Source: Gemmatimonadaceae bacterium (lineage in GTDB: Bacteria > Gemmatimonadota > Gemmatimonadetes > Gemmatimonadales > Gemmatimonadaceae). Taken from it: DNA of 64,000 bases. The position numbers were made by a program, and so were the translations under genes. The notes under the pieces were generated by a model that worked only from the letters and a program-made list of their open reading frames with translations, was not told the origin of the DNA and ran no database searches. Location of the stretch: positions 1 through 64,000 of the forward strand of contig DASYSS010000033.1 of assembly GCA_036003045.1 (NCBI GenBank), in the 5' to 3' direction. Below are positions 9,549 through 22,406 of this stretch, one piece after another (position 1 is the first letter of the stretch; each line of letters opens with the position of its first letter).

Positions 9549-12500
9549 TCAATGGGATCTCGGATCGCGTGGACCGCGCCGCGTGGCGAGCGCCTTGCGC
9601 GCTTCGCGCACGATGGGCTGGAGCTCGGGATCGGCGTTGCGCCACGCGGCGGCGACCACCGCGTAATTCGCCATCGCTTCGTCGGTGCGGCCCAACTGCG
9701 ACGCGACACGCGCGCGAGCGAGCGTCCACATCACATCGTCGAACCCGTTGCTGCAGCCGCTCGTCCCCGGCCAGTGCCGCTCGAGCCGCGCCGACGCATC
9801 CTTGAACCGGCGCTTGGCGATGAGCAACTGGACGAGTTGAAGACGGCTGTCGTACCAGCACTCGTGGAGCGTGTCGCTCGCGAACATGAGCTGGCGGAGC
9901 GCGGCCATCGTGTCGCGCCTGGCAAGTGAGAGATACGCGTTGCCCGCGGTGATGTTGGCGCGGATGTTGGCAGCCGTCGACGGCGTGGCGGGACGCGTGA
10001 GCCGGTTCTCGTAGAAATCGATGTAGCGCTGGATCGAAGCCGTGTCACCGTCGCTCGCCCACCAGCCGTAGAGCTTCGTGAACTGCGTGCCGGGCAACAG
10101 GTCGAGAACGCGCTTGAACTCGACGCGGGCGCTATCGGCCGACACCATACCGGCGCGGGCCATGTTGTAACGAACGGTCGATCGCTGCCAATGCGCGTGC
10201 GTCGTCGTCATCGCTTCCGCTTCGCGCAGGTGCCCGCGGAACTGGAGTCCCTGCACCGCTTGCTCGACGGCGCACGACGGATGCTGTCCCTCGGTCAGTG
10301 TCTCCGGCGGCCGGTTGTACAACGCGCGCGCGATGCGCACGATCGTCTCGGCCGAATCGGTGACGTGCCCTAGGAGGCGCGACGCGACGCACAATTGGTT
10401 CGCCGGCAGCGTATCCACCAGTCGCGGAACGTCGAGCGTCGCCGCGCGATCCGGGTCGAGCAGCACGTCGGCGAGACGGATGAAGTCCGAGCGTGGGCCC
10501 GACGGCGCGAGCGAGAGGTACGCGCGCGCGTACCGGCGTCCCATGTGCGCGCCGTCGAGATACGTCGCGAGGCGGATCGGCGTGAGGTAGGCGGGCGCGA
10601 ACGAGGAATCGAGCTCGATGGCGTGCTCGTAGTGCTCGAGGATCGACCGCTCGTCCACTTCGCCGAGCGCGATGTCGCCCTGATACCGCATCATCGCTTC
10701 CGCGTACAGGAAGCAGACTTCGGCGTCGTTCGGATAGCGCGTGAATGCGTCGCCCAACAGCGCGAGCAGGCGCCGCGCGATCGCTTCCTCCTGACCGTAG
10801 TTGCCGGTCTGGATCGCGCTGCGCCACGCGAAGTAGCCGGCGCCGAACAGCGAGTCGGCGGTCGCGAACAGACGCTCACGGGGACCGAGCCCGCGCTGAA
10901 ACCGGCTGGCTTGGAGCAGCAGCTCGAACGTCGTCGAGTCGGGGATGCCCTTTTGATCGCGCCAGAAGCGAACGGTCGCGAGACGATGGTAGGCCAGCGC
11001 GAACGTCGAATCGCCGGTCAGGGCGTTCTCGAAGTGCGTTTGCGCGGAATCCCATTGCGCCGCGCGGTAGAACTGCTCGCCGCGCAGGTATTCCTTGAGC
11101 GCCGAGAGCGAGACCGTCGGCGATGACGTCGCGTGCGCGAGATCGATGTTGCGGGATCGGCCGATCTCGCGAAGAACGGCGACGGTCAGGGAATCCGAGA
11201 GACGATCCATCCGGTCCGCGGCGTCCACGTACTGGATGTCGGCGACCGTGCGGCCGGAGGCGACGTCGAGCATGCTGAGCGTCACCCGCGCGGAGTCGCC
11301 CGCCGCGAGCAGTCCGCCGAAGATGACGAACCGCGCTCCCGTCGCGCGTCCGAGCTCTTGCGCCGACTTCGGGTCGGCGCGTCCGTGCCACCGGTGAATC
11401 ACCTGCGACGCGGGCACGGCGCGGATCGGCCCCGCACCGTCGAGGCCGCGCGACAGGACGTCGACGAGGCCCTCCTTCCATATTGACAGCGACGGCGACG
11501 CGACGTCCAGCGGCGCAACCGCGACGAGATCCTGATCCAGCATCGACGTCTTGCCCGCTTTCATCGCGGCAAAGGCGATGAGGCCGGCCGTGAGGCCCGC
11601 GACGAGAAGGCCGACGACGATCGGCGCCTTATTGATGCGCCCCGCGTCCTTCAACGCCGAGGCAAGCTCGCCGGCCGTGGCGAATCGCTCCTCGCGCAGC
11701 GGCGACATCGCCCGCGTGACCACGGCCGCCAGCCGCCGCGAGACGAATCGGGACAGGACTGCCGGATCGACGCCGACGCGGCCGGGGTCCCGACCGTCGG
11801 CGGCGCGCATCATGGGACGCTGCCCCGTGAGCATTTCATAAAGGACGCAGCCGAGCGAGTAGACGTCGCTGCGTCCGTCGATGTCGGGCAGTCCGACGAC
11901 CTGCTCCGGGCTCATGTACGACGGAGTGCCGGCGACCGGCGTGTTGCCGGTCGTCTCCTCGTCGCCGTTCGAGATCGCGCGCGCGATGCCGAAGTCGGCG
12001 ACGAGCGCATGCCCTTCCTGGAGAAGGATGTTGGCGGGCTTGATGTCGAGATGGACGACGCCCCGGCGATGCGCGTAGTCGAGCGCCATCGCCACCTCGC
12101 GGCCCAGACGCACGGCCTCTTCACGCAGCAACCGGCGGTCGCGCTTCAAGCGCTCGCGAAGCGATTCTCCGGTCGCCAACGGCGACACGAAGTAGACGAA
12201 GGCCGGATCGCGCTCGCCGTCGACGCAGACTTCGCCCGAATCGTGCAGCGGAAGGATGTGCGGGTGCGACAAGCTCGCCGCGATCTCGATCTCGCGCTCG
12301 AATCGGGCGCGGTCGATCGCGCGCGCCACACTCGAGTGGATGGCCTTGACCGCGACCTGGCGCCCGTGGCGGAGATCGTCGGCGAGATAGACGGTTCCCA
12401 TCCCGCCGCGGCCGATCTCGCGGACGATGCGGTAGCGCCCCGCCAATTCCCTCGGCAGCTCCGGTTCGGCGAGCAGCGGCGCGTAGGCGACGGCGGCCGG

Positions 12501-12689
12501 CGCCTCGAGGAAGTCGTCGGTCAGCTCGCACGCCGCGAGCAACGACATGAGCTCGGCGGCGAGATCGGCGTCGCCGCCGCACGCGCGTTCGACCCACTCT
12601 TCCCGCTCGTCCGGACAAATCTCGAGCGCCGCATCGAGCAACGGATCGAGCTGGTTCCATTGCTCACGGGACAGCGGTGGACGGCTCAT
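9549..12689 (-). CDS. Transmembrane Ser/Thr protein kinase with TPR-like C-terminal half
   Basis: 1046 residues. After an ~80-residue helical N-terminal region comes a kinase domain (about 86-350): GRGGMG 93-98, catalytic K115 in VAVKAIH, D232 in ADFGIAR, and [10 protein letters not shown]. One membrane helix follows at 356-376, then a ~670-residue extracytoplasmic half with helical TPR-like repeats (for example [20 protein letters not shown]). The catalytic loop reads HLDIKPAN, so the Arg of the usual HRD is Leu (non-RD type). The ATG overlaps the TGA of the upstream sigma gene (ATGA), implying coupled translation. Output is probably phosphorylation linked to that sigma factor or its targets; this is inference. 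Confidence 0.92.
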
Positions 12690-13318
12690 CGTCCGGCGGT
12701 CGCGAAGCTCCGATGTTGTCCGGTGTGCGACGGGGGATCGTTCAGCGCTCGATAGAGGATCGCGCGCGCCTTGGTCCAGTCGCGCCGAACGGTGCGCGCG
12801 GTGATGCCGAGGCTCTCGGCGGTCTCCTCTTCCGTCATGCCGCCGAAGAACCGGCACTCGACGACGCGCGCGAGACGCTCGTCGATCTTCGCGAGGTCGT
12901 TCAGCGCCTCGTCGAGCTCGAGCAGCGACTCCGGATTGTTCGCGCCGTCGACGAGTCCGTCGTCGAGCGTGATCGGACGCTGCGTCCCGCCGCGCTTTTC
13001 AGCGGTGCGACGCCGCGCGCGATCGACGAGGATGTGGCGCATGGCGATCGCCGCGACGCTCAGAAAGTGCGCGCGGTTCTGCCAGCCCGACCCGTCGGAG
13101 CGCGAGAACTTGAGGTACAACTCGTGGACGAGTCCCGTCGCGGAGAGCGTGTCGCTCGGGCGGACCGCGAGCTCGCGGCGCGCGGTTCGGCGGAGCTCGT
13201 CGTAGACGAGCGGGAGTATTTCGTCGAGCGCCTCGGTGCGCCCGGCACGCAGCTCATCCCGAAGCTGGGAAACGGTCGCCGGCGGCGACCACTGGGGGGA
13301 CTGCTTCGGCCTGATCAC
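12686..13318 (-). CDS. ECF-type RNA polymerase sigma factor
   Basis: 210 residues with region 2 ([19 protein letters not shown], then [20 protein letters not shown]) and region 4 with a helix-turn-helix ([20 protein letters not shown]). The pattern matches the large ECF subgroup of Acidobacteriota, Planctomycetota and Gemmatimonadota (Sigma70_ECF/TIGR02999 type) that is usually encoded next to a Ser/Thr kinase rather than an anti-sigma factor. Its stop overlaps the kinase start by 4 nt. No anti-sigma gene is present, which suggests control through the adjacent kinase. Confidence 0.92.
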
Positions 13319-18996: not shown

Positions 18997-19725
18997 ATGA
19001 CTTCGGCAGACCTTCGCCGTGTGTCGGCGTTGCCGCCCCGCAGACAACGAGCGACTTGGCGAGACTGGGTTCGGCTCGCGATCCCCGTCGTGCTGCTCGC
19101 GGGCCTCGTCGTCGCCGGATGGCAACTCGGCTATTTCGATCTCACCGAACACGACGCCCTGCATGAAGCGGCGACGCGAGCGAGCGGAATTCCATGGCTC
19201 GCGCCAATGTTCGTTGCCGTCTACGCGGGATTGGCTGCGCTGGCGGCACCGGTGTCGCCGCTCGCCTACGGCGCGGGCGCCGTCTTCGGAGTCGTCGAGG
19301 GATCGATCCTCGTGTGGACGGCGTCGATGATCGGAAGCGCGGCGGGATACACGCTCGCGCGAACCGTATGGTCGGAGTCCGCGCGCCGCTTGCTCGGGCG
19401 GCACGAAGCCAGGCTTCGGAAACTCCGGGATGGAAATACGTTTTTGACGGTGCTCCGCATTCAACTCTTGCCTGTCGTCCCGTTCGGGCTGCTCACGTAC
19501 GCGGCCGGAACGGCGCGACTGAACTTCGTTCCGTATTGGCTCGGCAGCGGGGTCGGAATCATCCCGTCCACCATCGCGGCGGTGTACGTCGGGGACCGGT
19601 TGCGCGCGGGGGTACGAGGGGGCGGTGGACATCCGTTTCTGGTGGCCGGTCTGGTCATGGCCGGGGTGCTGATCCTGTCCTTCCTTCCGACGCTCATCGC
19701 GAAGCGCAACGAGCGCTCGGACTGA
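18997..19725 (+). CDS. TVP38/TMEM64 (VTT/DedA) family membrane protein
   Basis: 242 residues with about five hydrophobic segments. The VTT core is recognisable: APVSPLAYGAGAVFGVVEGS, MIGSAAGYTLAR, and the loop LRIQLLPVVPFGLLTYAAGT with the conserved Arg and Pro residues. Such proteins act as lipid scramblases or membrane-homeostasis factors. The ATG at 18997 is chosen because the frame upstream overlaps the MFS gene as a shadow. It is encoded between an MFS carrier and a kinase, with no clear functional link. Confidence 0.85.
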   Translation: MTSADLRRVSALPPRRQRATWRDWVRLAIPVVLLAGLVVAGWQLGYFDLTEHDALHEAATRASGIPWLAPMFVAVYAGLAALAAPVSPLAYGAGAVFGVVEGSILVWTASMIGSAAGYTLARTVWSESARRLLGRHEARLRKLRDGNTFLTVLRIQLLPVVPFGLLTYAAGTARLNFVPYWLGSGVGIIPSTIAAVYVGDRLRAGVRGGGGHPFLVAGLVMAGVLILSFLPTLIAKRNERSD

Positions 19726-19763
19726 CTCTCGCGGCGCGGCCGAGCCCGCCGCATCTTAGGTTC

Positions 19764-22406
19764 GTGCCAGCCGACACGGAACGCCTCTCCGCGGCGCTCG
19801 CCGACCGCTATGCGATCGAGCACGCGTTGGGCCAGGGCGGGATGGCAACCGTTTACCTCGCGCGCGATCTCAAGCACGACCGCGGCGTCGCCATCAAGGT
19901 CTTGAAGCCGGAGCTCGCGGCGGTGCTCGGCGCCGAACGCTTTGTCGTCGAGATCAAGACGACGGCGGCGCTTCAGCATCCACACATCCTCCCGCTCTTC
20001 GACTCCGGAACGGCCGACGGATTCCTGTACTATGTCATGCCGTACGTCGAAGGCGAGACGATTCGCCAGAAGCTCAACCGCGAAACGCAGTTCGGGATCG
20101 ACGACTCGGTTCGAATCGCGCGCGAGGTCGCCGACGCCCTCGACTACGCACACCGGCATGGCGTGATCCACCGCGACATCAAGCCGGAAAACGTCTTGCT
20201 GCACGACGGCCGCGCCATGGTGATGGACTTCGGCATCGCGCTCGCCGTGAGCGCGGCGGCGGGCGGCCGAATGACCGAGACGGGGCTGTCGCTCGGCACG
20301 CCGCACTACATGAGTCCCGAGCAGGCGACCGCGGACAAGGATATCACACCGCGGTCCGACATCTACTCGCTCGGCACAGTGCTCTACGAGATGCTCGCCG
20401 GCGAGCCGCCGCACGTCGGCGGATCGGCGCAGGCCGTGATCATGAAGATCATCGCCGACGAGGCGCGGCCCGTGCAGGAATTGCGTCGGTCCGTTCCTCC
20501 GAACGTCGCGGCGGCCGTCGCCAGGGCGATCGAAAAGGTTCCGGCGGACCGATTCGAGAACGCGAAAGCGTTCGCCGATGCACTGGCCAACCCGGCGTTC
20601 ACGACCGTCATGGCGGCGCGCGGAAACGCGCCGCGTGCGGCCGGCGTATCGCCCGCTTTGTTCTGGTCCGCGGCGGCGATCGCGTTGGTGTCCCTCGCCG
20701 GCGCCGCCTGGAGTTGGCGTCGCCCAACACCCCCGCACGCCGTCACACGCGTGAGCATGGGTTTTCCCGACAACCAGCGTCTCACGGACCTCGCGTCGTT
20801 CTTTCGCGTGTCGTTGTCACCCGATGGACGGACCTTGGTCTACGTGGGGGCCGGCACCACGCTGTCGGCTTCGAGACTCTGGATTAGACACCTCGATGAG
20901 CTGACGGCCACGCCGCTCGCGGGCACCGACGGCGCCATCAATCCCTCGTTTTCGCCGGATGGAAGGCGCCTCGCGTTCGTGAGCTCGAACGACATGGCGC
21001 TGCGCGTCGTCGCGGTGAGTGGAGGAGCGACGACCGTACTCGTCGACTCCCTGGTGGATCGCGGCGGCGTCTCGTGGGGCACGGACGGCTACATCTATTA
21101 CGACGGGCACCTTCCCGGAGACGGACTGGCGCGGGTCCCCGAGACCGGCGGAAAGGCGGAGGCGGCGACGAGCAGCGACTCGACCAGCGAACGATTTCAC
21201 ATGAATCCGTCGGCCCTGCCGAACGCGCGTGGAGTGCTCTTCACGATCGCTCGTCCCAGCGGCCTGCCCACGTACGACATCGGCGTCCTCGATTCAAGAA
21301 CTGGAAAGTACAAAGTCCTGGTGCGCGGAGCGATTGGCCGCTACGCCGAGTCCGGACACCTGATCTACGTCACGGCCGACGGGACCATGATGGCGGCGCC
21401 GTTCGACCTCGAGCATCTCCGAATCACCGGCGAAGCATTTTCGCTCGCGCAGGGCGTGGCGGTTCGCGCCCTATCCCGCGGCGACGTTTCGATCTCGGCC
21501 AGCGGCACGATGGTGTATGCGGCGGGATCGACGGGCGGAGGACTGGGCGATTTGGCGTGGGTCACCCGCGACGGGAAGATCACGCCGGTCGATTCACAGT
21601 TCGCGCGTTACTTCATCGGCCCGCTCCACCTGTCACCGGACGGACGCCAGGCCGCCGTCACGACCCTCGACCTCGATGCGCAGCGCAGCGTTTGGGTGAA
21701 GCAGCTCGATCACGGGCCCGCGACCCGAGTGATGAACGCCGGGTCGCCCGCATGGTCGCCCGATGGGAAGACGCTGATCGCCACGACCAATTCGAAGCTC
21801 GCCCTCGGCCCGGCGGACGGCAGCAGCCCTCCGCGCGAGATCGACGTGGGGCACGTGGCGCCGGCGACGCCCGTCGTTTCACCCGACGGAAAATGGTTCA
21901 TCTACATCCAGCAGGGTGCCATCTATGCGCGGAGCGCGGTGCCGGGGGACTCGGCGACGAAACTTCTCGTCTCGGGTCTACATCAGAGCGCCCCGGCCAT
22001 TTCCCCCGATGGCCGCTGGCTCGCGTATTCGTCCGACGAGAGCGGAAGAGAGGAGATCTACGTTCGACCGCTCCCCGACGCGAAGGCATCCAAGCAGCAA
22101 GTCTCGGTTGCCGGCGGAATCTCACCGCATTGGTCGCGCACCGGACGCGAGCTGTACTTCGTCGACGAGTCGCGTCACATGGTGGCGGTTCCCGTCACGC
22201 CCGGTCCGACGTTCATCGCCGGCGAGCCGAAACAGTTGTTCGATGTCTCGATGGGATACACGCCGACAAGCGGAGTTCCGTTCGACATCGCCGCCGACGG
22301 CCGATTTCTTGTCGCGCGCGTGCCGGGAATAGGCTCCGGAACCCGGGACGAGGTGATCCTCGTCGAAAACCTCTTCGACGATCTCAAGGCGAAGACCAAG
22401 CGTTGA
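19764..22406 (+). CDS. Ser/Thr protein kinase with C-terminal PD40/WD40-like propeller
   Basis: 880 residues from a GTG at 19764 (AGG about 5 bp upstream). The kinase domain (14-275) has GQGGMA 23-28, K45 in VAIKVLK, HRDIKPEN (H136-D138), MDFGIA (D155) and GTPHYMSPEQ. One membrane helix at about 298-318 leads to an extracytoplasmic TolB-like propeller with repeated SPDGR motifs (VSLSPDGRTLVYV, SFSPDGRRLAFV, AISPDGRWLAYS). Unlike the kinase at 9549-12689 it keeps a canonical HRD. The architecture is a transmembrane sensor kinase; ligand and targets are unknown. The upstream part of the open frame is a shadow of the VTT gene. Confidence 0.93.
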   Translation: MPADTERLSAALADRYAIEHALGQGGMATVYLARDLKHDRGVAIKVLKPELAAVLGAERFVVEIKTTAALQHPHILPLFDSGTADGFLYYVMPYVEGETIRQKLNRETQFGIDDSVRIAREVADALDYAHRHGVIHRDIKPENVLLHDGRAMVMDFGIALAVSAAAGGRMTETGLSLGTPHYMSPEQATADKDITPRSDIYSLGTVLYEMLAGEPPHVGGSAQAVIMKIIADEARPVQELRRSVPPNVAAAVARAIEKVPADRFENAKAFADALANPAFTTVMAARGNAPRAAGVSPALFWSAAAIALVSLAGAAWSWRRPTPPHAVTRVSMGFPDNQRLTDLASFFRVSLSPDGRTLVYVGAGTTLSASRLWIRHLDELTATPLAGTDGAINPSFSPDGRRLAFVSSNDMALRVVAVSGGATTVLVDSLVDRGGVSWGTDGYIYYDGHLPGDGLARVPETGGKAEAATSSDSTSERFHMNPSALPNARGVLFTIARPSGLPTYDIGVLDSRTGKYKVLVRGAIGRYAESGHLIYVTADGTMMAAPFDLEHLRITGEAFSLAQGVAVRALSRGDVSISASGTMVYAAGSTGGGLGDLAWVTRDGKITPVDSQFARYFIGPLHLSPDGRQAAVTTLDLDAQRSVWVKQLDHGPATRVMNAGSPAWSPDGKTLIATTNSKLALGPADGSSPPREIDVGHVAPATPVVSPDGKWFIYIQQGAIYARSAVPGDSATKLLVSGLHQSAPAISPDGRWLAYSSDESGREEIYVRPLPDAKASKQQVSVAGGISPHWSRTGRELYFVDESRHMVAVPVTPGPTFIAGEPKQLFDVSMGYTPTSGVPFDIAADGRFLVARVPGIGSGTRDEVILVENLFDDLKAKTKR

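Follow-up and report, generated by a model that had tools for sequence, protein, structure and literature searches.

An ECF sigma factor coupled to an HLD-loop transmembrane kinase in Gemmatimonadaceae, and a three-helix kinase extension that accompanies such sigma factors

In the 64,000 nucleotides of Gemmatimonadaceae DNA analysed here (the window), the gene of an ECF sigma factor overlaps that of a transmembrane Hanks-type kinase with the catalytic loop HLDIKPAN, and this HLD loop is genuine and inherited within a small kinase family. The two genes probably form a signalling unit like EcfP-PknT and EcfK-PknS, with a proposed phosphorylation of Thr61 of the sigma factor and a proposed docking through the N-terminal extension of the kinase. 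Sigma-phosphorylating kinase pairs have already been described in those two systems; the present analysis adds the HLD clade, the link in these kinases between non-RD loops and loss of activation-loop Ser/Thr, and the extension as a candidate sigma-linked module found across phyla. The pair comprises the following features.

12686..13318, minus strand: ECF sigma factor, 210 aa (TIGR02999 / PF07638), with a GTG start at 13318 and a stop ending at 12686
13136..13138, minus strand: codon of Thr61 in region 2.2 (LSATGLVHE), aligned with the phospho-Thr of EcfP/EcfK
12686..12689, minus strand: ATGA overlap of 4 nt between the sigma TGA and the kinase ATG
9549..12689, minus strand: transmembrane Hanks-type Ser/Thr kinase, 1046 aa, with its ATG at 12689
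12420..12689, minus strand: N-terminal extension of the kinase, aa 1-90, with predicted helices at 8-22, 26-36 and 41-59
12030..12053, minus strand: catalytic loop HLDIKPAN, aa 213-220, non-RD
9579..11537, minus strand: half C-terminal to the membrane segment in the AF2 model, an alpha/beta domain (about aa 385-512) and a helical TPR-like solenoid (aa 528-1037)

The sigma factor scored 195.4 bits against TIGR02999 (curated cut-off 126.15) and 155.2 bits against PF07638 (cut-off 21.1). Its region 2.2 reads SATG, which is uncharged and has no acidic motif, with the conserved Thr present. The reported ECF43 consensus in this region is QTTA, with Thr in 88% (PMC13147305), and EcfP carries STTA, again without an acidic motif, and is phosphorylated on the Thr (PMC8999054). 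The exact STTA is found in four of the six sigma factors of the HLD clade (G011, G012, G013, G109). In its uncharged motif with Thr and its adjoining Hanks-type kinase gene the sigma group looks like ECF43. A search of the PDB with the sigma sequence gave no match.

The coupling itself, described in a sequence-only reading of this DNA as an ATGA junction between an ECF sigma factor and an HLD transmembrane kinase, was found as stated. Among 187 distinct related sigmas, 172 have Thr at the EcfP/EcfK phospho-position and 136 are followed by a codirectional kinase within 1.5 kb, 124 of the latter with the Thr; ATGA-type overlaps were seen in 49 of 144 coupled kinases. The supposed link between kinase and sigma is supported. 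Genome-wide, seven matches to zf-HC2 anti-sigma genes were found and none lies near the pair, so the earlier statement that no anti-sigma factor is present holds for the zf-HC2 class.

The kinase scored 155.8 bits against Pkinase (cut-off 31.7), as expected of a Hanks-type kinase; a 1102-aa ORF in the same frame is counted from an upstream GTG. In its loop (H213-L214-D215-I-K-P-A-N) the catalytic D215 is retained and the Arg is absent, which places it among non-RD kinases as these are defined in PMC2875399, where, in the part available, PknJ is given as RD. The glycine loop GRGGMG, K115, E133, D215, N220, D232FG and S260PE are all kept. There is one prominent hydrophobic segment (19-residue windows with starts at 354-359), and the predicted model (mean pLDDT 83.7) consists of three N-terminal helices (core pLDDT 96-97), the kinase domain, one membrane segment, the alpha/beta domain and the long solenoid. 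The TPR sensor half of the sequence-only reading thus survives as a predicted solenoid, while its Pfam assignment is borderline (TPR_19, 25.3 bits against a cut-off of 25). A solo HRD kinase of the same genome (L139, G000:C58:51685-52446) resembles the window kinase (391 bits, residues 56-1030), and the sensor half is therefore common to the window kinase and a kinase without a sigma gene in its examined locus. The second kinase of the window (19194-22406) has the loop HRDIKPEN, keeping HRD as had been noted, and a PD40 beta-propeller half.

The HLD loop was followed through 179 genomes of the family, in which a DNA pattern for HxD[ILVMF]KPxN found 4467 loops and two non-Arg-codon patterns, to both of which AGY-coded Ser is invisible, found 28 and 32 loops (58 of the 60 with loci). 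HLD was found seven times, each time directly downstream of a sigma factor of the same kind. Such a position was seen for 8 of the 51 remaining non-RD loops, a set that includes 5 loops not recognised as kinases. One group with a support of 100 unites six of the seven HLD kinases, which come from four genera (G000, G011, G012, G013, G073 and G109). The HLD loops of G055 and of a Bryobacteraceae kinase (L067) are placed apart, and the tree requires three changes; L050 (G011:C96) and L051 (G109:C99) were each counted once. A one-off change or an assembly error is ruled out, as is confinement of HLD to a single gene with other catalytic residues lost: the loop is common to six orthologues and the residues are kept. 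Of the five other members of the window's genus that were examined, four lack any sigma matching that of the window at E 1e-42 or better, and the copies in the fifth (G115) come no closer than E 3.7e-52, the best with 48% identity; the sigma-kinase pair is therefore patchy.

HLD is not a hallmark of coupled kinases in general, since 125 of the 144 distinct coupled kinases have HRD. In the genome of the window, 62 Pkinase matches (about 60 Hanks kinases) include 56 HRD loops and three non-RD loops that keep the Asp: the HLD of the window, HQD on contig C100 (sigma-coupled) and HFD on C104, for which no sigma was found in the examined loci. The C100 kinase (G000:C100:5139-6607; L001, L149) has the loop HQDLKPSN, lies outside the HLD clade and has no Ser/Thr at activation-loop position -7 (defined below). 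The same genome has 19 PF07638 matches, of which seven, all at E 1e-39 or better, are strong; a profile built for this analysis also gives seven. Directly downstream of six of these seven sigmas lies a codirectional kinase. Non-RD loops were raised among coupled kinases both in this genome (2 of 6 against 1 of 54 others, p 0.024, with the solo HGA and HGC rows, which lack the catalytic Asp, placed on the RD side) and in the family (of 58 non-RD loci 15 were coupled, compared with some 370 sigmas for 4467 loops). On the tree, however, this enrichment did not hold up as a general tie between non-RD loops and coupling (0.9 independent pairs the same way and 0.6 the opposite way, of 8). The view of the whole pair as a distinct signalling design, put forward in the sequence-only reading, is not supported, both because coupled kinases are mostly HRD and because, to judge from the available parts of PMC13147305 and PMC8999054, kinase pairs that phosphorylate their sigma were already known.

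We then compared activation loops, counting positions from the GT of a GTPxYxSPE anchor; 21 of 266 kinases without the anchor were dropped (17 solo non-RD and 4 solo HRD). Position -7 aligns with what we take to be T171 of PknB. Among coupled kinases, Ser/Thr stood at -7 in 110 of 125 with HRD and in 6 of 11 with a non-RD loop other than HLD; for HLD the count was 2 of 8. The difference between non-RD and RD loops, the significance of which is inflated by related rows, was seen among coupled kinases (8/19 vs 110/125, p 2.6e-5) and among all kinases (10/41 vs 177/204, p 4e-15). In eight supported independent pairs, non-RD loops and loss at -7 went together in 4.6 and against each other in 0.1 (median p 0.0625). 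Positions -5 and -7 were both examined and the signal is at -7; at -5, HLD and coupled HRD kinases did not differ (Thr in 2/8 vs 46/125, p 0.71). Within the clade of six, only the window kinase has Ser/Thr at -7, and G012 and G109 have none anywhere from -8 to -1.

These alignments suggest that non-RD loops accompany loss of activation-loop Ser/Thr among coupled kinases, which partly supports the earlier idea of a kinase that does not need activation-loop phosphorylation. Such independence is typical of non-RD kinases, though not universal among them. The window copy itself fits that idea less well, as it has Thr at -7, -8 and -4. The change to HLD may instead be neutral or mild, with the activation loop still autophosphorylated and the kinase regulated as any RD Hanks kinase would be, a reading that we doubt but take seriously. 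The three Thr of the window loop are what it would predict, coupled kinases are mostly RD, and the plant non-RD kinase EFR is regulated through activation-loop phosphorylation according to the available part of PMC8463890. A neutral change sits less easily with the retention of HLD in six orthologues across four genera, with the bare loops of G012 and G109, and with the far more frequent loss of the -7 Ser/Thr where the loop is non-RD.

The N-terminal extension follows these sigma factors closely and corresponds to no domain of Pfam or NCBIfam. A profile was built from the 95 residues upstream of the kinase domain in 50 coupled kinases from GTDB loci, with E 1e-5 or better taken as a match and 29 of 216 test kinases excluded for having fewer than 30 residues upstream. 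All 94 held-out coupled kinases matched, against 13 of 93 uncoupled ones. Twelve of these 13 have a sigma in their locus in another arrangement, and the thirteenth (L154) lies 3.2 kb from the sigma of contig C22; where the locus has no sigma, 1 of 68 kinases matched. Counting the training rows as well, a match was seen in every one of the 143 coupled kinases that could be tested. The extension requires 22 changes on the kinase tree, at least 8 of them forced by supported branches, and in 12 pairs it went the same way as coupling in 6.8 and the other way in 0.0. On C22, the sigma (G000:C22:23190-23699; L005, L161) is of the same type and has no adjoining kinase, the next gene being a 498-codon frame with no kinase match; the kinase with the extension (C22:26881-27690) is on the other strand, and this sigma is the nearest known to it.

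The extension also occurs in the kinase PknS of Xanthomonas citri, where 83 residues precede the kinase domain and are conserved among Xanthomonadaceae; in the available part of PMC13147305 they are given no known role, are predicted to form three to four helices and are unseen in the crystal. PDB chain 9eed, whose accession appears in the same paper, matches our profile at E 8.1e-14. At nine further loci the sigma gene is followed by a frame of 65-95 codons that resembles the extension and overlaps the sigma.

L117:5636-5899: free-standing homologue of the extension, overlapping the sigma gene
L115, L116, L118, L120, L121, L124, L125 and L128: further free-standing homologues, overlapping the sigma gene

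The overlap with the sigma stop is 4 nt in six loci and 11-14 nt in three. Most of the nine are labelled as Planctomycetota kin or Phycisphaerae, and L118 (Bacteroidia) and L124 (Limnohabitans) may come from mixed bins. Three of the nine frames were recovered by the extension profile (E 1.1e-8 to 6.2e-8), and a profile of all nine aligned to the extension over 52 columns in hhalign (probability 96.4%, E 1.1e-9 for a single comparison); none of the nine has a Pfam match. A divergent kinase without the extension is present in all seven testable loci (L116, L117, L118, L120, L124, L125, L128). L122 has a similar divergent sigma-kinase pair, in which no small frame was found. Searches with the nine-sequence profile gave 12 matches in 10 of 15 genomes, and matches in 4 of 121 genomes from the order of one of those genomes. 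Of the 13 distinct matches, 12 adjoin a sigma and 11 also have a divergent kinase, including L347, L348 and L350, which were outside the profile; L349 is a 41-codon fragment with neither.

Since the helix set follows the sigma whether or not it is fused to a kinase, we read the extension as a likely sigma-binding part and propose that it is a sigma-docking module. A broader form of this proposal, which we put forward tentatively and believe nearly as readily as we doubt it, is that, in several phyla, the sigma factors that Hanks kinases switch are marked by the three-helix module, mostly fused to the front of the kinase and in some Planctomycetota encoded as a separate gene overlapping the sigma. 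It would act as the docking part, perhaps also as a built-in inhibitor, that directs one kinase among dozens to one sigma, and the window clade would thereby have been freed from the RD switch. With about 60 Hanks kinases and seven such sigmas in one genome, the pairing must be specific. We found no literature description of the extension as a sigma-linked module that recurs across phyla and at times stands alone, although the 2020 EcfP paper may have noted the extension.

The company that the extension keeps with sigma factors, fused or free-standing, would also suit an anti-sigma domain from which an active kinase frees the sigma with no activating phosphorylation. We consider this unlikely. 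No zf-HC2 gene adjoins the pair, and the extension does align with zinc anti-sigma (zf-HC2) domains over 45 columns, but this likeness by eye is not significant in hhalign (probability only 1.7%, P 0.03). Pfam and NCBIfam scans of 90 extension members gave scattered weak matches, with anti-sigma models at chance level (0.029 and 0.065), and fold searches returned a catalase tail and homeodomains (Z 5.3 or less), from which we read no kinship, and no anti-sigma domain. Moreover, such sigmas lack the acidic motif, and the available parts of the sources report that EcfP requires the charge supplied at region 2.2 (PMC8999054) and that PknS phosphorylates EcfK and thereby activates it (PMC13147305). 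It is very improbable that the kinase serves as a receptor of little or no catalytic activity and signals through docking alone; the lost RD Arg and drifting activation loop would suit this, but every catalytic residue from K115, E133, D215 and N220 to D232FG and SPE is kept.

Under the preferred reading, a two-gene unit working through phosphorylation and docking, the sigma has no acidic residues in region 2.2 with which, by analogy with the known systems, it would hold RNA polymerase. The membrane kinase would sense a signal through its extracytoplasmic alpha/beta and TPR-like half and phosphorylate Thr61, supplying the missing charge so that the sigma could join RNA polymerase. The three-helix extension, going by its distribution, would keep the sigma beside the kinase, and the ATGA coupling could hold the output of the two genes in step. 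As the catalytic loop has turned to HLD and the clade's activation loops have drifted, the kinase probably depends less on loop phosphorylation and probably relies more on sensor-driven dimerisation or sigma docking. If this is true, the way in which kinases acquire a transcriptional output would be explained by a portable sigma-docking module, which would also be a sequence marker that predicts sigma-kinase pairs even when the genes lie apart and would offer a part for switch building. The HLD clade offers a natural case in which to see whether a sensor kinase can do without the RD switch.

We found no literature on Gemmatimonadetes with an ECF sigma and kinase. Plant EFR and the Sulfolobus kinases resemble the window kinase in having no Arg before the catalytic Asp, and the parts of the literature examined give them no sigma-factor link. 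In fold, the kinase domain is closest to mycobacterial PknB, that of M. tuberculosis, with a TM-score by target of up to 0.86; PknB has HRD, and the PASTA kinase family NF033483 is not matched by the window kinase (235.1 bits, below the cut-off of 450). Closer are the two ECF43 systems, in which, as far as the available parts of PMC8999054 and PMC13147305 describe them, a signal activates the kinase, the sigma is phosphorylated on Thr and the sigma joins RNA polymerase. EcfP-PknT of Vibrio parahaemolyticus is like the window pair in the region 2.2 Thr and the absence of an acidic motif. EcfK-PknS of Xanthomonas citri shares with it the adjoining sigma and transmembrane kinase, the region 2.2 Thr and the domain order of the kinase (N-terminal extension, kinase, TM, periplasmic TPR). 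An EcfK carrying T51A still works in X. citri (PMC13147305), so that this Thr is not the sole switch there. The X. citri pair differs from the window pair in the canonical H/YRDXKXXN loop of PknS, in QATE of EcfK where the window sigma has SATG, and in belonging to another phylum.
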